This document shows, piece by piece, positions 2,531 through 26,962 of a stretch of DNA of 26,962 bases; position 1 is the first letter of the stretch; each line of letters begins with the position of its first letter. The stretch comes from a virus: the IMG/VR virus record IMGVR_UViG_3300048447_000514, positions 1-26,962 of that record, one strand, 5' to 3'. A program made the position numbers and the translations under genes. The notes under the pieces are model-generated. The model ran no database searches and was not told the origin of the DNA. It saw nothing but the letters and a program-made list of their open reading frames with translations.

Positions 2531-3714
2531 GTGAAGTAGCCATCATAAACGGACCGAGCGCAGCGCCGGCGGAGAGATCTTCGGCGCTTGCCATAGCCGC
2601 CGAGCAGAGCGCCTTCACGCGAGAGCAGGTCGCGGCTCTCAAGGCCATGAACGGCTGGACGGAGACGCCCGACGCCGAGCTCTCCATGTTCTTCCACCAG
2701 GCCAAGCGCACGGGCCTCGACCCGTTCGCCCGCCAGATCTACCTCATAGGCCGCGGCCAGGGCAACCGAAAGCAGTACACCATCCAGACCGGTATAGACG
2801 GCTACCGGCTCATAGCCGACCGCACCGGAACATATGCGGGGTCCGACGCGCCGGAGTTTGGCGAGGATGATCTCGGGATCTGGTGCAAGAAGACGGTCTG
2901 GAAGATCGTACAGGGCGTGCGCTGTCCCTACACGGCGCTCACCTACCGCCACGAGTACGACGCCGGATCGCCGATCTGGCGCAAGATGCCGAACAACCAG
3001 CACGCCAAGTGCACCGAAGCCTCGGTCCTGCGCATGGGCTGGCCCGCCGACCTCTCCGGTATCTACACCTCAGAGGAGATGGAACAGGCGGATAGCTCTG
3101 GTGTGATAGATGCGGCACCGAGCAAGACACCGCCGGCTCCTACCCAGGCTAGCTCCAAACAGGAGCGGCCGGACACCCGGCCGCCTGGAGAGCAGACACG
3201 CGGTAGCACCCTCCCCAACCCCTCCGTTACGCCACAGGAGCTCAGGAGGGCCTGGCAGGATCTTCCCCAGGACGCCCGGCCCGATTGGACCGGGGAAGTC
3301 TGGCCCGCCTACCAGCGCGACCCCCAGGCAGCACTGGACCGGCTGCACGAGCTCGCCGATCTGAAAGAAGACGACGATCCCCGCGACGATGTCGGTCAAG
3401 CCGCTGGTGAGCCGCGCTGGGTGCCCGAGATGGACGAGGCTAAACCCGAAGATGAGCCCGAAGGTGAAGCGGCGGTTGAGGGCTCTGAAAGTGAGTCGGG
3501 TGCTCCAGGCGAACCTCCGCTGGACGATGGGCAATACACCTACATCCACGACATCGCCGAGGAGCTCTACTCCGATAAGAGCGAGCGCCACACCGGAGTC
3601 CAGTACCTCGAACGGCAGCTAGGGCGTTCACTGACCTCGCTGACCCGGGAAGAAGCCACGGCGCAGATCCGCAGCCTCGATAACGAGTACCGGGAGATGA
3701 TGGCAGATGGGTAG
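2527..3714 (+). CDS. bet: RecT/Bet-family single-strand annealing protein
   Basis: A 395-aa protein with GGAGG (2515-2519) before the ATG. The N-terminal 200 residues carry the Redbeta/RecT hallmarks: the helix FFHQAKRTGLDPFARQIYLI (about 55-75), the TGIDGYRLIADRTG segment (about 88-101), the central beta region, and KCTEASVLRMGWP leading to a final GIYTSEEME. These proteins anneal complementary strands during phage recombination and replication. Residues about 195-395 are an unusually long Pro/Glu/Asp-rich extension, doubling the common family length. It may contact a single-strand binding protein or the nuclease partner. No lambda-exonuclease or YqaJ-like partner is seen nearby. Confidence 0.85.
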   Translation: MSEVAIINGPSAAPAERSSALAIAAEQSAFTREQVAALKAMNGWTETPDAELSMFFHQAKRTGLDPFARQIYLIGRGQGNRKQYTIQTGIDGYRLIADRTGTYAGSDAPEFGEDDLGIWCKKTVWKIVQGVRCPYTALTYRHEYDAGSPIWRKMPNNQHAKCTEASVLRMGWPADLSGIYTSEEMEQADSSGVIDAAPSKTPPAPTQASSKQERPDTRPPGEQTRGSTLPNPSVTPQELRRAWQDLPQDARPDWTGEVWPAYQRDPQAALDRLHELADLKEDDDPRDDVGQAAGEPRWVPEMDEAKPEDEPEGEAAVEGSESESGAPGEPPLDDGQYTYIHDIAEELYSDKSERHTGVQYLERQLGRSLTSLTREEATAQIRSLDNEYREMMADG

Positions 3715-4666
3715 TGATCAACCGCATTCCCCAACCTTCGTCGCCGACGCCGGCGACCTTCGCAGGTACCGCACCGAGATCCCCAACGTCATAGATGACA
3801 TGGATCTCTCACTACAGGCATACCGGCTGTACGGTCACCTAAAGCGTGTAGCCGGGGATTCTGGCGTGTGCTGGCAAGGCACGCGCTCGCTGGCCGATCA
3901 CTGCAAGATGGGCGTCGGTTCGGTGTCTCGTGCCAAGTCCGAATTGGCGGAGTCGGGGCTCATAACTATCGAAGAGGGCGACCGGTTCAAGGGTCAGTCG
4001 GACACCATCACCATCGCCGATGTGTGGCTCCAGAACATGCAGAGTTACGCCCCTTCCAGCGAGGAACACCCTGTTCCCGAGTGGAACACTCCCTGTTCCT
4101 CTGAGGAACACCCCTGTTCCAGTGTGGAACGTAAGAAGGAACCCACAGAAGAAGGTAGTACAGAAAGACTTCCTAACGGAAGTCCAAAGAAGGCCCCGCC
4201 TTCTTCCCCGCCCCGGATCAAGAAGCTCAACGCCGACCAAGCTGGAGAGCAATTCGATGCTCTCTGCGAAAGCGACTCTTGCGGCGGCGAACTACGACAA
4301 CTTGCAGAGATGCTCGCTTCAGAGAACAAGACCGGCGAGGTTGCGATCACGAGGGTATGGAACGAGCTCGGCAGCCGCTACATCGCAAACCGTGAGCGGT
4401 ACCAGCTATCGGATGAGGCGTGGCGCTACGGCTTCGAGCGGGCCATCTCCGCCGGGGCTCCGAACATCGGCTACGTCGTGAAGGCCGCGAAGGGGTACCG
4501 GCCGGAGCAGGATGACAAGCCACGAAGTCCACAAGGCCCACGAGGCTCTGCCGCGACGAGTTCAAATCGCCGCTCGCTGGCAGTCGTCGGTGCAACAGAC
4601 GCCGACTACGAAGCTGATCCATTCGACTACGAAGGTAAGAGCCGGAAGGAGGGGAGTTATGCCTGA
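3707..4666 (+). CDS. Winged-helix replication organiser (origin-binding protein)
   Basis: A 319-aa protein. Residues about 22-105 form a winged helix-turn-helix: LSLQAYRLYGHLKRVAG, then TRSLADHCKMGVGSVSRAKS and an ESGLITIEEG wing, as in DnaD/replisome-organiser proteins of temperate phages. A Pro/Ser/Glu-rich linker (about 118-170) follows. It is encoded by the palindrome cluster described separately. The C-terminal helical domain (about 175-265; RVWNELGSRYIANRERYQLS, then a YVVKAAKGY segment) may contact the helicase loader encoded directly downstream. The gene overlaps the next start by 8 bases. Function follows from fold pattern, gene order and embedded repeats. Confidence 0.72.
   Translation: MGSDQPHSPTFVADAGDLRRYRTEIPNVIDDMDLSLQAYRLYGHLKRVAGDSGVCWQGTRSLADHCKMGVGSVSRAKSELAESGLITIEEGDRFKGQSDTITIADVWLQNMQSYAPSSEEHPVPEWNTPCSSEEHPCSSVERKKEPTEEGSTERLPNGSPKKAPPSSPPRIKKLNADQAGEQFDALCESDSCGGELRQLAEMLASENKTGEVAITRVWNELGSRYIANRERYQLSDEAWRYGFERAISAGAPNIGYVVKAAKGYRPEQDDKPRSPQGPRGSAATSSNRRSLAVVGATDADYEADPFDYEGKSRKEGSYA
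4063..4184. other. Candidate phage replication origin inside the organiser gene
   Basis: Three perfect palindromes GGAACA-N-TGTTCC lie at 4063-4077 (3-base centre), 4083-4099 (5-base centre) and 4105-4120 (4-base centre). Start-to-start spacings are 20 and 22 bases, about two helical turns. A half-site GGAAC follows at 4126-4130. Next comes a purine-rich, relatively AT-rich stretch (4131-4200) with a perfect 7-bp inverted repeat, GACTTCC-TAAC-GGAAGTC (4167-4184). Iterons inside the initiator gene followed by an easily melted region are the known layout of lambda-type origins. That this is the origin is inferred. Confidence 0.6.
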
Positions 4667-9119: not shown

Positions 9120-9192
9120 ATGGCAGTAGCTCAGATGGAAGAGCAGCGGCCTCCAAAACCGCAGGCCAGAGGTTCGAGCCCTCTCTGCCATG
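9120..9192 (+). tRNA. tRNA-Trp (anticodon CCA)
   Basis: A full cloverleaf of 73 bases can be drawn: acceptor ATGGCAG with CTGCCAT (7 bp), D stem GCTC/GAGC with a GG-containing 8-base loop, anticodon stem GCGGC/ACCGC, T stem AGAGG/CCTCT with loop TTCGAGC, and discriminator G at 9192. Anticodon CCA is at 9153-9155 after T33. The closing pair of the anticodon stem (31-39) is a C-A mismatch. No 3' CCA is encoded. It is probably a phage-borne tRNA helping late protein synthesis. Confidence 0.85.
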
Positions 9193-9345
9193 CTTAGCGG
9201 CAGCCTTACTCCTCCTTTCCCTTTCCCCGAGTATTCCCCGGGCTGTCGCTTATTTGAGATCCCGCCGTTGCGTCGCCTGTTCTCCCAATTGGATGTCACG
9301 ACGTTTGTCAAAAATGCACATTCCCCCGGAGGCGTGCGGCGGGTT

Positions 9346-15959: not shown

Positions 15960-16036
15960 AGGCTTAGATAAAGTAAATGGCCCCGCAAGTGCTAGCAACA
16001 CTCCGGGACCCGGCCCACACAGACTTGGAGGTCACT

Positions 16037-16555
16037 GTGGACAATGAGCAGTCTACCGCAAGTATTCCCCTGTATCTAAAAGGCGAGATCGTCGCCTTTG
16101 CGGTCGTTGACCAAGCTGACTACGCATGGGCTAGTCAGTTCACTTGGCTCCTACACAAAAATGGCTACGCATGGCGACACGAGCATGTACGGGGCTCTAG
16201 CAGGGCAGCGAAGAAGTTTCACTGCATGCTGGCCCGAGAGATCATGTCGGCCCCGCCAGATCAAGAAGTGGATCACATCAACCGGAGCAAGCTCGACAAC
16301 CGGTGTGAGAATCTGCGACTTGCAACCCGCCGGACCAACATCCTTAACGTGGGCATGCGTGCTGACAATAGGAGCGGGTATCGCGGGGTAACTAAAGCAA
16401 GTCGGGGGAAACGTTGGAGAGCGCAAATCGGTGTCTATGGTGTTCGCACTTACATCGGCTCGTATCCCACGCCGGAAGATGCCGCCCGAGCCTACGACGA
16501 CGCGGCCATCAAGCATCACGGCGAGCATGCGCAGTTGAACTTCCCTAGCAGCTAA
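16037..16555 (+). CDS. HNH homing-type endonuclease with AP2 DNA-binding domain
   Basis: 172 aa from GTG at 16037, which follows GGAGGT (16027-16032) closely. The frame is open up to an ATG at 15977, but the family usually begins near the IPL strand, so the inner start is preferred. The N-terminal part (about 10-50) has the [20 protein letters not shown] segment usual for these enzymes. The HNH motif spans about 62-101 (FHCMLAREI, then [20 protein letters not shown]). An AP2 domain follows ([20 protein letters not shown], then [20 protein letters not shown]). Such genes are free-standing mobile endonucleases. It interrupts the head operon between capsid genes and has its own promoter. Confidence 0.88.
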
Positions 16556-19350: not shown

Positions 19351-19926
19351 TTGGCTCCGCAGAAGGATGTGACGGCTGTACTCGTAGGGGTCTCCTGGCT
19401 CTACATAGCGCCGGGCAATACCGCACTCGTGGGCGACGAGGTAGCCTACGGTGCGGAGTGGGAAGATCCCTGGCGCTACGGCGGGGCCACCGAGGAGGGC
19501 GTGTCTCAGAGCTTCGAGCGCGACGTGAACTACCACCGGATAGAGGAGCAGACCTCTCCGGTCAGGGTGACGATAAACGAGTCGACGATCTCGATCTCGA
19601 CCTCGTTCGCCGAGCACACCCTGGAGAACATGAAGACCGCCATGGGTGGCGGCAGGATCACGAAGACCGCTGCGGGCTCCGGCCAGCCGGGAAAGAGCAT
19701 CCTGACTTTCCAGGACGACCTCGAGGAGTTCGCCGTCGGCCTCGAAGGCAAGAACCCCGAGGGCTTCTGGAGGCGGTTCTACATCCCGCGCGTGGTCTCC
19801 GTGGCCACCGTGGAGACCGCTCACCGCCGTTCGGAGTCCAAGAAGCTCCTACCGGCGACCTTCAATGCCATCTGTGCGATCGAGGAGATCGGCGTGCACG
19901 ACATGACGGCAGAGGCGCTCGCCTAG
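19351..19926 (+). CDS. Major tail tube protein
   Basis: A 191-aa protein starting with TTG right after the previous stop, with AGAGAGGTG upstream. It has a mostly beta pattern with one helix (SFAEHTLENMKTAMGGGRIT), typical of the tube fold related to lambda gpV. There is a strand-rich start (VTAVLVGVSWLYIAPGNTAL), 'SPVRVTINESTISISTSF' and a final sheet region (RRFYIPRVVSVATVE, KKLLPATFNAI). Position between tail terminator and chaperones and the strong terminator behind it fit the most abundant tail protein. Confidence 0.75.
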   Translation: MAPQKDVTAVLVGVSWLYIAPGNTALVGDEVAYGAEWEDPWRYGGATEEGVSQSFERDVNYHRIEEQTSPVRVTINESTISISTSFAEHTLENMKTAMGGGRITKTAAGSGQPGKSILTFQDDLEEFAVGLEGKNPEGFWRRFYIPRVVSVATVETAHRRSESKKLLPATFNAICAIEEIGVHDMTAEALA

Positions 19927-20021: not shown

Positions 20022-20456
20022 ATGGCAGGTTTCGACGTAAGCAGCGTCGAGGAGCTTGACTACGACTTCACGGGTATCACGCGTGACGACGGCAAGGGCA
20101 AATGCTCCGGCAAGGGCGTGGTTCCCGAGCCTTCTACCAAGCGCCTGCAGGAGTTCCAGAAAGCGGTACTGGAGTTCACCCGCAGCCGACTCCCGGAGGA
20201 AGCCGACAATGCTTCCGGTAACACGGGTCAGAGCATCGACGCCGAGATCCGCGAGGGGCTCATGGAAGCCATGCAACAGGTAGAGCGTGACGGCGAAGAC
20301 CGGGAAGAGACCTCGAAGATCCTCGAGAAGCTCACCCAGAAATCGCCCTCTAAAGAGGAGATGGATGAGCTGCCGCCCCGGTACTTCACACGCTTCTTCC
20401 AGTACGTGTACCAGGGAGTAGCCCCGGAAGCCTCGAGCGCCGCTACGCCGGTCTAG
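20022..20456 (+). CDS. Tail assembly chaperone (lambda gpG-like)
   Basis: A 144-aa acidic helical protein behind AGGAGG, between tail tube and tape measure genes, the invariant place of gpG-like chaperones. The end (DELPPRYFTRFFQYVYQGVA) is helical and overlaps an open -1 frame that continues 248 bases past the stop. These chaperones bind the tape measure protein and recruit tube subunits. A minor product with the -1 extension is expected. Length and order match the family; sequence families here vary widely. Confidence 0.7.
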   Translation: MAGFDVSSVEELDYDFTGITRDDGKGKCSGKGVVPEPSTKRLQEFQKAVLEFTRSRLPEEADNASGNTGQSIDAEIREGLMEAMQQVERDGEDREETSKILEKLTQKSPSKEEMDELPPRYFTRFFQYVYQGVAPEASSAATPV

Positions 20457-20704
20457 ACGACGACGAGAAACGCACCTATTACGTCTTTAGACGTTACCTC
20501 GGCTACACCCCTTCCGAGGTGGACGACATGTCCTGGGTGGAGCGGCGCATGTTCATAGAGATGCACAACGAACAGATGCAGAACGAGAACGAGGGGAACG
20601 ACGGGGAGCCGGATTATGGCTCCCCGGAGGAGACGGGCGGGCCGCAGGACGGCACTAGCGCGGGCGAGCTCGCCTCGCTCGGAGTGAACGTTACGGGCGG
20701 GTAG
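20417..20704 (+). CDS. Tail assembly chaperone, -1 frameshift extension (lambda gpGT-like)
   Basis: In the -1 frame relative to the preceding gene, the sequence is open from 20369 to the stop at 20704 and reads as protein: ERRYAGLDDDEKRTYYVFRR, then YLGYTPSEVDDMSWVERRMF, then an acidic tail. The first start codon in this frame (GTG 20519) would cut away the conserved-looking YYVFRRYLGY part, so expression as a fusion by ribosome slippage before 20456 is preferred. Possible slip points are GGGAGTA (20414-20420) and CCCGGAA (20423-20429); neither is a textbook heptamer. Start given here is the codon after the first candidate. Confidence 0.65.
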   Translation, partial: SSPGSLERRYAGLDDDEKRTYYVFRRYLGYTPSEVDDMSWVERRMFIEMHNEQMQNENEGNDGEPDYGSPEETGGPQDGTSAGELASLGVNVTGG

Positions 20705-20734: not shown

Positions 20735-23700
20735 GTGGCGTTCGACGCTGGCTCTATAACATCAGAGCTGCGCCTCGACCGCAGCCCTTTTATGCGCACT
20801 CTGACGGCAGCCCGGGGGGCTGCCTACGAGTTTGCCCAGAACCGCTTCTCCCCGACCTTATCGGCCACGGCCGATCCGGCGATACGGCACACCGCCCGGG
20901 CCCGGGAGAAGGTCGAGGAGTACGGCCGCCAGAGCGAGAGTGCAACGCTCGACGTCGACGACCGCACGGCCCGTAACACGCTCACCGAGTACGACCGCAC
21001 GATCCGCAACTACACTCGCTCCTGGTCTCAGCGCGGCATCCGGACCAGGATCACCGCAGACATCCGCCGCGCTTCGCGCAACCTCCGTACCCTGGAGAGC
21101 CTCAAGGAAAGTTCCACGGGCGACGAGCGGGTGCGTGTGGAGGCCGAGATCACCCGCGCCCGCGAGAGGCTCCAGGCCTTACAGAAGCTCGCGGTAAGCG
21201 TCGGAGCCCAGAGCCCGACAGTCAGCGTCGGGGTGCGCGGGGCCGTGGCGAGCATGGCGACGATGCTTGGTCTCCAGACCGTCGCCGACCGTCTGGACGG
21301 CTACAACGTCCGCTTCGGCGCGGATATAGATAGCTCGCTATCTAAGGCCCTGCCGAACGCCCTGGGCGCTCTGGAACTCCAGCTCGCCCGATTCAAGACC
21401 GTGGCCACGGGCATCGCTGCCGTCACCGTACCAGTCCTGTACGCCTCCTACGCCACACTCCCGGCCATCATATCCACCGTGGGGGCCGCCGCCGGGTCTC
21501 TCGGTATAGCCCTCGGGCAAGGTCTCGCCGGCGGAGCTGGGGTGGCGGCGGTCGCTCTCGGGCAAGGCCTCGTCGGAGGGCTCTCGGCCGTTGGTGGTGC
21601 CCTCGGGCTCGGAGGGGTGGCGCTCGTCGGCTACTACGCGGCCGTGAATCGCACTATCAACTACGTCGGCGACCTGACCAGCGTCATCACCAGTCAGCGC
21701 AGCGCCGTATCTGAAGCCGGCAAGGCCACCAAAGAAGCCCAGCAGCGTCTCAAGGCCGCCGAGCCCGGCACCCGGGAGTACGCCCGCGCGTCCAGGGGTC
21801 TCGCGCTCGCAAAGGAAAACGAGCGCTACGAGCAGGAGAGGCTAAACACCCTTTACGACATAGCCACCCCGCGGATACTCAAGCTTCAGAAAAGCACGAA
21901 CCAGGCACGCATCCGGCTCCTAAAGATGGGTGGGGCCATCATGCACGAGGTGGCCCCGGCCCTCATGACCGGTCTCGCTCAATTCGACCGCTTCGGCGAC
22001 TCGATACACCGGGGAGCGGTCGGCATGACCCGGGACATGACCGGCGTGTCGCAGTCCCTGATACAGACCGCCACCAAAGGCCAGAACCTCCGCTCGATCA
22101 CCGGGATACTGCAAGGAATACGCCGGGCCGGCCCTCCGGCGCTCACGGCTGTCGGTAACGCCGCCCTCGCCGCGGTCAATTTCCTGGCCCCGCTCGTGCC
22201 GTACTCACTGAATGTGCTGCGCAACGTCTCGGACCTCGCCGTGGAAGCCCGCAAGTGGACCCAGTCGGAAGACGGTCAGCGCCGGATCGCGGAGATCTGG
22301 GAGACCCTGGTCGAGAGAGGCAAGCAGCTCGGTGGTATAGGCTCGAACATATCCCAGATCGTCTACCAGGGCCTCGCCCCGGCGGCCCGGTACTCCGGGG
22401 ACTTCCTCGGCTACCTCGAGGACATAACCGGGGAGGGCGCGAAGTGGGCGAACTCGGCCCCCGGTCAGCGCCGTATAGCCCGCGTGTGGGGCACCCTGGT
22501 CGACCGGGGCCGGTGGCTGTGGCGGGTGACCAAGAACCTCTCCCCGGCCCTGTGGGGCGTGCTCGAAGCTCTCGATCAGTCCGGTCTCGTGGACTACATG
22601 TCCGGCCGGGTCGAGAGGCTCTCGGGGCGGTTCGCGGGCCTTATGTCCGACTCCGGGCGTGGGCGCGATGGGGTGGTCGAATTCGGCAGGGACGTAAAGC
22701 CGGTGTTGCGCTCTGCGGAGAGGCTTGCCACGGACCTGGGCGCAGGATTTTTCTCCCTGACGGATACGGTCGTGAATTTCAGAAACAAGACGACCGGCAA
22801 GCGCGTGATGGTCGAGATAATCGACGCCTTCCGCTACATGGTGAACGAGCTGATACCGTTCCTACGGCACGAGTTCGAGGAGATCGGCCCGCTTCTGCCG
22901 CCCCTGATCCGGGCGCTTACCGACTGGTTCGTTATTTTTGGCAGGGCGCAGCCGGAGATGAAGTTCTTCATCGGCTTCATAACGGATGCCCTGGAGGCCT
23001 TCAACTCCTTACCTAAGCCCATGAAATTAACGATAGCTCGCACGGTCGCATGGCTTACCGCTCTGAGAACGCTGGGCCTCGGGTGGCGTGTCGCAAGCTT
23101 TGTGCTCGGCTTTGGCAAGCTCCGTACCGCTATCGGACTGGCTACCGCCAAAATATGGGGCCTTAACAGGGCGGCCAAGGCCACGCCGAAGATGACACCC
23201 CCTGTCGTGCCCCCAGCCAAGCCTGCCAGGGGCTTCTGGAGGCGGGTGCCGAAGACGGCTCCTCCGACCACGAGCCCCAACGTACCGCCGCCCTCTCCGG
23301 CTCGCGGGTACTGGAGGCGAGTACCGCGCACAGCGCCCCCGGTGCCTTCGCCGATGGTGCCGAGCCCCCACCCGGCGCGTGGCTACTGGCGGAGGGTCCC
23401 GCGTACCGTCCCACCGCCGTTCCCGCCGACCGTGCCGGCTCCGGTTCCGGCCAAGCGTTTCTGGCGGCGCACCCCGAGAACGGCGCCGCCGGTGGTAGCT
23501 CCGACGGTCCCGGCACCGGTGCCGCAAAGGCGCTACTGGAGGAAGTACCCGCGAGTGGGGCCGCCGATCTTCGCGCCCACGATACCGGCCCCGGTGCCGG
23601 CGAAGGGCTTCTGGAGACGGACGCCGCGGCGAACCCCGCCGGTTACCACCCCGCCGGTCCCCGCTCCGGTTCCGAGCCGCGGCTTCAAGGGCGGGTTCCT

Positions 23701-24469
23701 GCGCCGCCTGACCCAGATAGGCTTCCTCGCCTCCATAGGCGGCTGGTTCGCCCGGATGTGGAAGCGCATACCGTTCGCCGCCCAGCTCGGCAACGCCTTC
23801 CGCAAGATGAAGGTCGGCCGTATCCTGGGCGGGATTCTCGGCGCGTTCAAGAAGGTCGGATGGAATTTCCTTATCAAGTTCATAGGACTCCGGGTCATCG
23901 GCGGCCTGCTGGGATTCCTGCTCGGCCCGGCCGGCTGGATACTGCTCGCCTACTCGCTTATCGACATGCTTACCGGCGGCTGGCTAACCAAGAAGCTCAC
24001 CCCGGTGGGCAAGTGGATCGGCAAGAATATCATCGGGGGCATGGTAAGTGGCCTGAAGTGGGCGTGGCGTAACGTTCTCAAGCCCGCGCTCTCGTGGATA
24101 GGCAGGCAGATCCCAAAACCGATAAAGAGACTCCTCCGAATGAACTCGCCCTCCAAGGTAGGCGAGGACATCGGCAGAAACTTCGGCAGGTCCATGCCGA
24201 GAGGCCTGCGCCGTGCCGTGCCGGACATGCGCCGTGCCGCCGGCGAGATCACCCGTGCCGGGATACCCGATATGAGTGGTGTCTCCTACAAGGCTCCGAC
24301 CGTACGCGGTCCGGGCAAGCCCGCGCAGGACTCCGGCGGGTCGTCCCGTCAGCAACGTCCCCCGCGCCAGCGCTGGAAGAAGAGCCAGCGGCCGGCCGTG
24401 TACATGGTCGTGGACGGACGGGTGATGGGCGAGCTCGTGGGCGAGAAACTCGATGAGTACCTGCGTTAG
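20735..24469 (+). CDS. Tape measure protein
   Basis: A 1244-aa protein, the largest gene in the window, starting with GTG behind GAGGAGG. The N-terminal 215 residues are helical and charged. About 220-305 is a Gly/Ala-rich hydrophobic region (LYASYATLPAIISTVGAAAG and following), and a second hydrophobic block lies near 1045-1080; both are usual in tape measures and relate to DNA passage through the membrane. About 826-985 is a Pro/Arg/Trp repeat described separately. The end (MNSPSKVGEDIGRNFGRSMP) is typical of tape measure C-termini. At roughly 0.15 nm per residue the tail would be near 190 nm, an inference from the known rule. Confidence 0.88.
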   Translation: MAFDAGSITSELRLDRSPFMRTLTAARGAAYEFAQNRFSPTLSATADPAIRHTARAREKVEEYGRQSESATLDVDDRTARNTLTEYDRTIRNYTRSWSQRGIRTRITADIRRASRNLRTLESLKESSTGDERVRVEAEITRARERLQALQKLAVSVGAQSPTVSVGVRGAVASMATMLGLQTVADRLDGYNVRFGADIDSSLSKALPNALGALELQLARFKTVATGIAAVTVPVLYASYATLPAIISTVGAAAGSLGIALGQGLAGGAGVAAVALGQGLVGGLSAVGGALGLGGVALVGYYAAVNRTINYVGDLTSVITSQRSAVSEAGKATKEAQQRLKAAEPGTREYARASRGLALAKENERYEQERLNTLYDIATPRILKLQKSTNQARIRLLKMGGAIMHEVAPALMTGLAQFDRFGDSIHRGAVGMTRDMTGVSQSLIQTATKGQNLRSITGILQGIRRAGPPALTAVGNAALAAVNFLAPLVPYSLNVLRNVSDLAVEARKWTQSEDGQRRIAEIWETLVERGKQLGGIGSNISQIVYQGLAPAARYSGDFLGYLEDITGEGAKWANSAPGQRRIARVWGTLVDRGRWLWRVTKNLSPALWGVLEALDQSGLVDYMSGRVERLSGRFAGLMSDSGRGRDGVVEFGRDVKPVLRSAERLATDLGAGFFSLTDTVVNFRNKTTGKRVMVEIIDAFRYMVNELIPFLRHEFEEIGPLLPPLIRALTDWFVIFGRAQPEMKFFIGFITDALEAFNSLPKPMKLTIARTVAWLTALRTLGLGWRVASFVLGFGKLRTAIGLATAKIWGLNRAAKATPKMTPPVVPPAKPARGFWRRVPKTAPPTTSPNVPPPSPARGYWRRVPRTAPPVPSPMVPSPHPARGYWRRVPRTVPPPFPPTVPAPVPAKRFWRRTPRTAPPVVAPTVPAPVPQRRYWRKYPRVGPPIFAPTIPAPVPAKGFWRRTPRRTPPVTTPPVPAPVPSRGFKGGFLRRLTQIGFLASIGGWFARMWKRIPFAAQLGNAFRKMKVGRILGGILGAFKKVGWNFLIKFIGLRVIGGLLGFLLGPAGWILLAYSLIDMLTGGWLTKKLTPVGKWIGKNIIGGMVSGLKWAWRNVLKPALSWIGRQIPKPIKRLLRMNSPSKVGEDIGRNFGRSMPRGLRRAVPDMRRAAGEITRAGIPDMSGVSYKAPTVRGPGKPAQDSGGSSRQQRPPRQRWKKSQRPAVYMVVDGRVMGELVGEKLDEYLR
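23210..23695 (+). repeat. Six and a half 75-bp repeats inside the tape measure gene
   Basis: Six exact-length 75-bp (25-codon) units run from 23210 to 23659, followed by a partial seventh. Encoded units share PARG[FY]WRR[VT]P[RK]TAPP, then a variable Pro/Ser/Val part ending before the next PAP. Units 1-3 are closest to each other; unit 5 is most diverged (QRRYWRKYPRVGPP). The even length shows growth by whole-unit duplication. Confidence 0.85.
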
Positions 24470-24484
24470 GGCGCAACTAGAGGG

Positions 24485-25339
24485 CTAGACCCTTCTTGCC
24501 GCAAAGCGCCGGGTGATGAGTATCCCGCCCACACCGGTCCAGAGCAGCACTGCGGCGATTACGGCGAGGGGCGGGCCGCCAGTGGCCGGGGTGGTCCCGG
24601 CTTGAACGGGCTGTGATCTGGCTCGGTCCTCAGCTAACTCGTTGTCTTCGCCCTCAATGTCGCTCACGCCACCCTGCTGTGCGGGGCCCTCTCCCGAATT
24701 CACAGGGCCCGAGCCCCCGCCTCCCGGGACGCCTGGAGCAACGCCGCCATCTTCTTGTCCGTCGGTCTCGTCGTTATTTGAGTCCTCGTCTTGTGGCTCG
24801 GTGGCTTCGTTGTCGCCGGGGTCTTGGCCGGCATCAGGATCGGGCTCGGCCGGCCCCGTGCCGTTGTCAGGGGGCGCATTTGATGCTCCGCACTCCTGTA
24901 CCGTGATGTCGTAGGACTGTAAGTCAGTAAAGATGTCTAGAGAGGCCCTGCCGGAGCCTTCAAGATTGATGGTGGAATCCGCCCCGTTGTTTAGCTGACG
25001 GGTCACTATCCTGGAAAAGCTCGGCCTCTCCACGACGTCTACGAAAGTGAAGCCTTGTGGGTTTGTGGCCTCGGTTTCTATTACGACCTGCCACCTATCG
25101 GCGTTTATGTCGAACGGCCGAGTTTCTTGGGTAGTGTTGCCCTGGAAAGTCTCGACTACTCTGGGGTCTTCGCAAGCATTCGGATCCTCGTACTGATCCT
25201 CTGTGGTGCCCTGCGCGCTCACGATGTGCGGATAGAAGAGCATGAACGTTACGGAGATCGCGGCTAGGACTAGCAACACGTTGGACGCTCTGGAGCGCCT
25301 GTAACGGACGGTAGTGGTGTCAGGCATAAGGTTTTTCAT
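24485..25339 (-). CDS. Secreted, surface-anchored protein (probable moron gene)
   Basis: A 284-aa protein on the opposite strand, starting at ATG 25339 behind GGGGAGG. A basic N-terminus and hydrophobic segment (about 20-37) end in VSAQG, a signal-peptidase-like site. A beta-rich domain follows (about 55-150) with two Cys (56 and 150) that could form a disulfide. Next is a long Asp/Glu/Gly/Pro stalk (150-248), then TPATGG (250-255), a hydrophobic helix (about 258-275) and a basic tail RRFAARRV, the layout of a sortase substrate with a variant LPxTG motif. It ends 15 bases from the tape measure stop. Orientation and cargo nature suggest a lysogenic-conversion gene altering the host surface. 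Confidence 0.7.
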   Translation of the reverse strand: MKNLMPDTTTVRYRRSRASNVLLVLAAISVTFMLFYPHIVSAQGTTEDQYEDPNACEDPRVVETFQGNTTQETRPFDINADRWQVVIETEATNPQGFTFVDVVERPSFSRIVTRQLNNGADSTINLEGSGRASLDIFTDLQSYDITVQECGASNAPPDNGTGPAEPDPDAGQDPGDNEATEPQDEDSNNDETDGQEDGGVAPGVPGGGGSGPVNSGEGPAQQGGVSDIEGEDNELAEDRARSQPVQAGTTPATGGPPLAVIAAVLLWTGVGGILITRRFAARRV

Positions 25340-25375
25340 GGAGGTCCTCCCCTAGCTTTCTCCAGCCTTCATGTC

Positions 25376-25387
25376 GGCACTAATGCC
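25376..25387. promoter_or_regulatory. Palindrome upstream of the surface protein gene
   Basis: GGCA-CTAA-TGCC (25376-25387) is a perfect inverted repeat 37 bases upstream of the surface-protein ATG, in a 100-base divergent gap. It could be an operator for the leftward gene. No clear -35/-10 pair was found near it. Confidence 0.25.
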
Positions 25388-25455
25388 ACAAGACTCTAAC
25401 CGATAGCGCGGCCCGGCGCAGCCGGAACCAAATAAAAATGAATGGAGGTGAGACC

Positions 25456-25851
25456 GTGCCCGGAACCATGAAGCTAGTCCGCGCCTCCGACGGAGCTCTG
25501 ATCTGTGACTATGTCGAGTTCGCCGAGGAGGCTGATAGCGCCCAGGTCAACGACCTGACTACGACGAACAACCGCACCTTCGTACAGCCCTGGGGTGGGC
25601 TCGAGTGGGGCTTCGACGTGACGCTGACTTTCTTCTCCAGCGTACCCTCGGCGAGCCTCGCTCGTAGACATATGCTTATCCGGGCCTGGCACCGTAAGCA
25701 GCGCCTACTGTTCACGTTCCGGGACGGCGAGACCTACCCCGTGGAGATCGTGACCCGCGAGGGCGAAAAGGATCCAGACTCAAGAAACGAACAGGTCTAC
25801 CACGAGGACGTGATGCTGGTGCGTAAAGACGCGGCGGGATTCGAAGCCTAG
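25456..25851 (+). CDS. Putative phage tail protein
   Basis: 131 aa from GTG 25456, preceded by the full-strength site GGAGGTGAG (25444-25452). An upstream in-frame ATG at 25438 lacks such a site. The protein is beta-rich: MKLVRASDGALICDYVEFAE, then FVQPWGGLEWGFDVTLTFFS, a basic helix (RRHMLIRAWHRKQRLLFTF), then YPVEIVTREGEK and VYHEDVMLVRKD. The length and strand pattern, and the place after the tape measure, suggest a distal-tail or tail-tip component. No named family is recognised. It is far smaller than usual distal tail proteins and is followed by no fibre or lysin gene. Confidence 0.5.
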   Translation: MPGTMKLVRASDGALICDYVEFAEEADSAQVNDLTTTNNRTFVQPWGGLEWGFDVTLTFFSSVPSASLARRHMLIRAWHRKQRLLFTFRDGETYPVEIVTREGEKDPDSRNEQVYHEDVMLVRKDAAGFEA

Positions 25852-25892
25852 CCTAGCTAAAGCTCCTCCCTCGCCGCTCCGATAACGAAACC

Positions 25893-26207
25893 ATGAGCGA
25901 AAAGAAAGACCTGAAGGAGAGGACGCAGGCGGCTCTGCGCAGAGCGGGGCTTACCCAGGCCGAGCTAGCCAGGAAGGCCGGTGTTCGCCAGTACGCCGTC
26001 GAGCACGCGTTGTATAGCCGTCTGGCGGCAGAGCCTGCCGGCAAGATCACCCGCGCACTCGGAGACGCTCTAAGCCTGGGCTCCGAAGACCGCCGCGCCC
26101 TCTTCACTGAAATAATGAACTTCCCAGGCGAGACTCGGGACATCAGCTCTAGGGTGGCCACGGAGAGTGTAATGCAGCGGTTCAAGGACTCTCTCGAAGA
26201 ACGCTAG
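25893..26207 (+). CDS. Small XRE-family HTH regulator
   Basis: A 104-aa protein. Residues about 8-58 are a clear XRE helix-turn-helix (KERTQAALRRAGLTQAELAR, then KAGVRQYAVEHALYSRLAAE and ITRALGDALSLGSEDRR). The remainder is short and helical, so it probably binds DNA as a small Cro-like dimer. No good GGAGG site precedes the ATG. It is separate from the repressor-like gene at the left end. It may regulate the neighbouring pilin or surface gene or be a remnant of another element. Confidence 0.7.
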   Translation: MSEKKDLKERTQAALRRAGLTQAELARKAGVRQYAVEHALYSRLAAEPAGKITRALGDALSLGSEDRRALFTEIMNFPGETRDISSRVATESVMQRFKDSLEER

Positions 26208-26220
26208 TGCCTTCAGGACC

Positions 26221-26240
26221 GTGGGCTTTGCGTGGGCTTT
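26221..26240 (+). repeat. Short direct repeat upstream of the pilin gene
   Basis: GTGGGCTTT occurs at 26221-26229 and 26232-26240, an 11-base period that puts both copies on the same face of the helix. It could be an activator site for the pilin gene about 125 bases downstream; that is only a suggestion. Confidence 0.35.
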
Positions 26241-26320
26241 CTGCCGATTTTGAGCACTTTCTGAAAATTATCCGCTAGGAGTGTCTAAACCGAGAAATCC
26301 GGGGCTTAACTATTTATAAG

Positions 26321-26338
26321 AGGGTCAATACAGACCCT
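26321..26338 (+). promoter_or_regulatory. Hairpin in the pilin leader
   Basis: AGGGTC-AATACA-GACCCT forms a perfect 6-bp stem 12 bases ahead of the GAAAGGAAG ribosome site of the pilin gene. A TATAAG box (26315-26320) lies immediately before it, so the stem may begin the transcript and stabilise it. No clear -35 was found. Confidence 0.35.
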
Positions 26339-26363
26339 GGTTTCAGACGAAAGGAAGTAGAAG

Positions 26364-26792
26364 ATGCTCAAGTGGTTCGCGGATAGGCTCGCCCAGACAG
26401 GCAAAAGAGTTGGCGAGGAAGAAAGGGGCTTCACGCTCATAGAGCTACTGGTAGTCGTGATCATCATCGGGATACTGGCCGCTATCGCTATCCCGACGTT
26501 CCTTAATCAGCGCGCTCAGGCGCAAGATTCCGCTGCACAGAGTAACCTGCGTAACGCCGCCTCTGCGGCCACGGCTTGCTCTGCTGATGCTGATAACAAC
26601 GGCTCGTACTCGAACTGTGCTACCGAGACTGCTCTTCAGGAGTATGGCTACAACACCGACTCCAACGTAAACGTTACTGCTATGAGTGGCGATGACGAGT
26701 CGTGGTCCGCTAGGGCCAGCCACACCAACAGTGACACGGTGTACCAGTTCAACACGAATAATGGTCAGGTAAGCGAGGTTTCCGCCTCTTAA
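26364..26792 (+). CDS. pilA: Type IV prepilin
   Basis: A 142-aa protein behind GAAAGGAAG. It has a 24-residue charged leader ending in Gly, then the class III signal: ERGFTLIELLVVVIIIGILA, with cleavage expected between Gly and Phe and the conserved Glu at mature position 5. The hydrophobic helix continues to IPTFLNQRAQAQDSAAQ. The globular part is short, with two Cys in ATACSADADNNGSYSNCA that may form a disulfide. A prepilin peptidase would process it and a type IV pilus or pseudopilus would assemble it. Probably a host gene at the prophage border, though a phage-carried pilin cannot be excluded. Confidence 0.9.
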   Translation: MLKWFADRLAQTGKRVGEEERGFTLIELLVVVIIIGILAAIAIPTFLNQRAQAQDSAAQSNLRNAASAATACSADADNNGSYSNCATETALQEYGYNTDSNVNVTAMSGDDESWSARASHTNSDTVYQFNTNNGQVSEVSAS

Positions 26793-26806
26793 GCGAGGTT
26801 TCCGCC
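26770..26806 (+). repeat. 17-bp direct repeat across the pilin stop codon
   Basis: TAAGCGAGGTTTCCGCC occurs at 26770-26786 and again at 26790-26806. The first copy codes for the last pilin residues; the second starts with the TAA stop codon. A 20-base duplication by slippage or a short integration footprint are possible causes. Confidence 0.75.
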
Positions 26807-26845
26807 CCTACTACTTAGCTTAGAGTGAAGGCGTAGGTACTTTGG

Positions 26846-26880
26846 AAGCGTCCCTAGACAAAGCTGGAGGCGCTTTTTTT
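26846..26880 (+). terminator. Terminator after the pilin gene
   Basis: AAGCG (26846-26850) pairs with CGCTT (26871-26875), extended by weaker T-G and C-G pairs, and is followed by an unbroken T run to 26880. From 26881 to the window end no gene is seen; an ATG at 26904 runs only 13 codons. Confidence 0.65.
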
Positions 26881-26962
26881 ATCCACCTTCTCGTAGGAGA
26901 TACATGAAGTGGACGTCGGGAGAAACAATCCAGCCTCTAACCTAGAGATCCCCAAGGGTTAC

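Follow-up and report, generated by a model that had tools for sequence, protein, structure and literature searches.

A 25-residue proline-, arginine- and tryptophan-rich repeat array in the tape measure protein of a phage or prophage of probable Rubrobacter origin

The tail tape measure protein (TMP) has been described as a three-stranded helical coiled coil that fills the tail tube (PMC10713586), with its N-termini located at the neck and its C-termini at the baseplate (PMC11661146), and as a predominantly positive protein within a negative tube lumen (PMC11661146, PMC8718954). A helical length rule has been shown to fit measured tails (PMC3556154). Repeats of 11 or 18 residues are present in about 5% of TMPs, and changes in such repeats have been proposed as a route to altered tail length (PMC5099701). 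In phage T5, the TMP has a hydrophobic stretch close to its C-terminus that was proposed to insert in the membrane and to anchor the tail (PMC10038345).

The window analyzed here, i.e., the whole stretch of 26,962 bases that makes up IMG/VR virus record IMGVR_UViG_3300048447_000514, appears from its sequence to derive from a phage or prophage whose host is probably Rubrobacter, since its type IV pilin is closest to that of Rubrobacter marinus and since a prophage of R. marinus is collinear with it. The pilin gene may be either host flank or phage-carried. A tRNA-Trp gene (anticodon CCA) was located upstream of the terminase gene (9120-9193, +), an HNH endonuclease gene (15977-16555, +) has been inserted after the major capsid gene, ahead of the next head gene, and a 22-bp tandem repeat of 3.7 copies is present at positions 4054-4130, within the open reading frame (ORF) at 3707-4666. 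The 3' end of the TMP gene is adjoined by an opposite-strand ORF (24485-25339, -) whose product begins in the manner of a signal peptide and has a membrane segment in its C-terminal part; the product resembles secreted surface proteins, and the gene is possibly cargo. Beyond the TMP gene (24470-26962), none of the usual minor tail and tail-tip genes was recognized, and the prophage may be truncated at this point or these genes may be located elsewhere.

Table 1. Positions in the window of the TMP gene, its regions and neighboring genes
Feature	Position	Strand	TMP residues	Remarks
Probable major tail (tube) protein	19351-19926	+		phrog_117 major tail protein, E 5e-8
Probable tail assembly chaperone pair	20022-20704	+		Position and frame overlap
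Tail tape measure protein (TMP) gene	20735-24469	+	1-1244	GTG start, 1244 aa, PHROGs matches
Conserved TMP core	22097-23026	+	about 455-764	Before the array; matches to other TMPs
Pro/Arg/Trp array	23198-23695	+	822-about 985	Six 25-residue units and a partial seventh; TRF period 75
Basic amphipathic and hydrophobic segment	23690-23971	+	986-1079	Candidate membrane-inserting region
Conserved TMP C-terminal motif (GKNIIGG..., ...MNSPSKV...)	23975-24334	+	about 1081-1200	tblastn, phrog_5493 and others
Type IV pilin	26364-26792	+		Carries N-methylation motif PF07963

On the evidence of sequence matches and gene order, the ORF at 20735-24469 is a genuine siphophage tape measure gene. Its product matches the PHROGs tape measure families phrog_6090 (E 1e-14, residues 40-392), phrog_58 (E 2e-6, residues 1000-1160) and phrog_5493 (E 9e-6, residues 1096-1191), and TMP-family matches are thus found on both sides of the array. 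Residues 498-730, within the conserved core, match the TMP of Gordonia phage Commandaria, and the C-terminal motif matched 110 phage records (tblastn, E up to 0.5), with nearly all of the matches listed carrying a tape measure or tail protein annotation. The gene order is that of siphophages, the TMP gene being located downstream of the genes for the probable major tail protein, which is acidic (pI 4.9), and the chaperone-like ORFs. The latter consist of an ORF at 20022-20456 followed by an open -1 frame at 20369-20704, and neither a canonical slippery heptamer nor a family match was found for the pair. The TMP itself is strongly basic (net charge +96, pI 11.2). The segment that follows the array is modelled as helices by AlphaFold2, and its hydrophobic part corresponds to residues 1044-1079 (Kyte-Doolittle windows >1.6).

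A preliminary description of the window had placed six full units and a partial one, each of exactly 25 residues, at positions 23210-23695 of this gene. The unit count is borne out by the lag-25 identity and the exact spacing of the core, and the coordinates were correct to within a few residues, the array extending from 23198 onward. The units start at TMP residues 822, 847, 872, 897, 922 and 947, with the partial unit starting at 972, and they share the consensus P-x-V-P-x-P-x-P-A-[RK]-x-[FY]-W-R-[RK]-x-P-[RK]-x-x-P-P. The [FY]W-R-R/K core begins at residues 834, 859, 884, 909, 934 and 959, i.e., with a spacing of exactly 25, and reads WRR in five of the six units and WRK in the remaining one; a Trp residue accordingly recurs every 25 residues from 835 to 960, upstream of the C-terminal motif. 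Eight columns are invariant across the six units (P2, P5, P9, W14, R15, P18, P22 and P23), and position 13 is either F or Y. The lag-25 identity within the array is 0.59, with 89 matches observed as against 21.3 +/- 3.9 (maximum 37) in 5000 composition shuffles, which establishes the array as genuine and far above chance. Its description as proline-rich and strongly basic also holds, as it contains about 30% Pro, carries a net charge of about +32 and lacks Asp and Glu. The surrounding stretch of 322 residues (755-1076) is likewise free of Asp and Glu, with Lys or Arg at 54 positions. An acid-free C-terminal region was considered as a special trait of this protein and rejected, since the TMPs of SpecialK, VroomVroom and Ray17 also possess 270-305 acid-free residues.

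The codons of the repeat units are indicative of age. Among identical residues in unit pairs, codons differ in 147 of 273 cases, compared with an expectation of 162 under independent codon choice at the codon usage of the genome, and the pooled pS of the units (0.64) exceeds their pN (0.32). The 25-residue register is free of indels across the six units. With synonymous sites nearly saturated and residues and register retained, the array is therefore old and has been under protein-level selection; chance or recent DNA slippage as its origin is ruled out by the codon analysis.

The structure of the TMP was predicted in two single-sequence AlphaFold2 runs, whose confidence was low throughout (mean pLDDT of 52 and 45). 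Helices were modelled up to residue 812 and again from residue 985, with almost no secondary structure in between. The array is accordingly assigned as coil with low confidence, an assignment that rests mainly on its proline content, and a regular coiled coil, already doubted in the preliminary description, is very unlikely. It is probable that one stretch of the ruler has an unusual, stretched-out shape, and we infer that the array is extended in a polyproline-II-like manner, contacts the lumen and contributes to tail length. Its 165 residues would span about 25 nm if helix-compact and about 51 nm if fully extended, where a rise of 1.5 A per residue over all 1244 residues of the TMP predicts a tail of about 187 nm.

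Relatives of the array were sought in several collections. The preliminary description had allowed for the units being a known domain of non-phage proteins, yet the array alone returned no match in Pfam, PHROGs or the PDB. No close relatives were returned by single-sequence scans of IMG/VR with the TMP, the major capsid protein, the terminase or the array, nor were any hits obtained among GTDB contigs with peptide patterns from the TMP. A 75-base-spaced WRRxPR pattern had 14 matches in IMG/VR, all in chance frames and none representing a proline-rich WRR array. A looser pattern of W-R every 25 residues returned at least 119 stretches, 38 of them with a stop-free frame; those inspected were mostly short-period repeats with a few unrelated 25-residue repeats, and none resembled the unit. 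Applied to 39 Rubrobacteraceae genomes, the W-R pattern gave match counts similar to those of a reversed-pattern control. A tblastn search of INPHARED and plasmids with the array returned nothing, a result to be read with the possibility that the BLAST low-complexity filter masked the query. Within the limits of these searches, a second TMP with such an array was found neither in the 39 Rubrobacteraceae genomes nor in IMG/VR or INPHARED.

The only close relative is a prophage of R. marinus SCSIO 52915, which was also the sole result of a portal search across the 39 Rubrobacteraceae genomes. Alignment scans with the protease and portal returned a single close match, contig IMGVR_UViG_2884011611, which is presumably this same prophage, all others being distant. 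The terminase, portal, protease and capsid genes of the two are collinear, with 39-45% identity, and the R. marinus TMP (L098:270-7184, minus strand) is 29% identical to that of the window over residues 547-764. The R. marinus TMP likewise carries tandem repeats of its own after the shared core; however, these form arrays of 40 aa x 5.1 and 44 aa x 2.9 which are unrelated in sequence and neutral to acidic. It further differs in its size (2304 aa), in being acidic overall (-61) and in possessing an endolysin-like C-terminal domain (phrog_29272).

The 450 residues preceding the C-terminal motif (134 in one split TMP) were also compared, over 51 lags, in 19 TMPs that possess this motif. The best lag was 44 in 11 of the 19 and 11 or 22 in a further three, the 44-residue periodicity being equivalent to 4x11. 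The array therefore occupies a usual place of TMP repeats, while its kind is new, with a period of 25, a proline-rich and strongly basic composition and a predicted non-helical structure. Its density is 33 Pro and net +21 per 100 residues, as against at most 13 Pro per 100 residues in all 20 comparator TMPs. The preliminary claim that the array is unlike known TMP aromatic repeats is upheld by its differences from those of the comparators; its period, chemistry and predicted absence of helix were unmatched in any comparator TMP and in the literature searched.

We tentatively favor the explanation that the array is an unusual chemical form of the siphophage TMP repeat region, i.e., an extended, cationic length module that immediately precedes a candidate membrane-inserting segment. 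Once the tail is assembled, its tube would be filled by TMP chains running mostly as helical strands; at residues 813-985 the helix would stop and the chains would run on in an extended, proline-stiffened and strongly cationic form, with an aromatic-Trp-Arg-Arg group recurring once per 25-residue unit at constant intervals. The negative charge of the tube lumen would be offset by the Arg side chains, and the ruler would gain length from the repeats in its tip-proximal part, adjacent to the presumed membrane-entering segment (1044-1079). Such a module is consistent with the TMP identity of both flanks, with the presence of repeats in the same region of the R. marinus and other TMPs, with the long retention of residues and indel-free register, and with the interruption of the modelled helices between 812 and 985, albeit at low pLDDT. 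The earlier suggestion of a length adjuster fits because related TMPs often carry other arrays at the corresponding place. However, this chemistry is not shared by the R. marinus TMP, which is acidic overall and whose repeats in the matching region are neutral to acidic; tube filling in this lineage therefore does not depend on a basic array. A mere spacer would also have no need of so strict a W-R-R core. It is unlikely that this ruler segment measures in an extended polyproline-type conformation in which each unit registers two tail-tube rings via Trp-Arg-Arg; with 3.1 A for each residue, a unit of 25 residues would then cover about 77 A, but the helical repeats of 44 residues, at 66 A, fit neither one nor two rings and so weaken the case for such commensurability.

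The strictly kept aromatic-Trp-Arg core counts in favor of the main rival, somewhat unlikely in our estimation, according to which the array would come to lie just outside the membrane-inserted helices after ejection, where its Trp/Arg/Pro units would attach to anionic lipids or wall polymers and would keep the TMP channel in place or span the thick wall. Such a role is conceivable given that the array lies immediately before the basic and hydrophobic segment at 986-1079. In its content of Pro, Arg and Trp, the array resembles proline-rich and Trp-rich antimicrobial peptides, which is counted in favor of membrane or wall contact. The membrane anchor proposed for the C-terminal hydrophobic stretch of the T5 TMP (PMC10038345) points in the same direction, but comparator TMP repeats at the same place are proline-poor and generally less charged, so that the function would be lineage-specific. 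The lineage-specificity of the array and the lack of any homologue found would suit a neutral filler, i.e., an expanded low-complexity spacer that is merely tolerated, as would the often modest effects of deleting the TP901-1 TMP repeats or of replacing one with alanine (PMC5099701). The near-saturated synonymous sites, the invariant Pro, Trp and Arg columns and the lack of indels argue against relaxed constraint and render this explanation rather improbable, although the constraint could date from an older, different function. Contact with DNA in the tail lumen, also put forward in the preliminary description, would agree with the strongly basic character of the array and its acid-free surroundings of 322 residues. 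It is disfavored by position, however, as the array lies at 822-985 of 1244 residues and it is the N-terminus rather than the C-terminus that faces the neck and the DNA (PMC11661146); situated in the C-terminal third, far from the packaged DNA, the array is very unlikely to contact DNA in the resting virion.

If the length-module explanation holds, part of the tape measure ruler can be non-helical, against its description as a helical coiled coil, and the simple rule of about 1.5 A per residue would be broken by a predictable amount, here about 26 nm. The array would also reveal if a helix, a register or charge alone is what TMP repeats depend on.

Among other proteins, TonB-type proline-rich spanning domains and Pro/Arg/Trp antimicrobial peptides have an extended, proline-rich and cationic composition like that of the array, although the array has no sequence match in Pfam or the PDB. 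The 11- and 18-residue aromatic repeats of TP901-1 and p2 and the 44-residue repeats resemble the array in being tandem, in lying upstream of the C-terminal part and in their spaced aromatics; in contrast to the array, they are proline-poor, mostly less charged and helical, and the known aromatic repeats have a period of 11 or its multiples, or of 18, rather than exactly 25. The TMP of phage 80alpha is likewise predominantly positive and complements a negative tube lining, although its resolved parts are helical and no Pro/Arg/Trp array is described in the passages of that report considered here (PMC11661146). Tandem repeats in TMPs are already known, and it is the chemistry of this array, its period and its predicted absence of helix that set it apart from the comparators and the literature searched.
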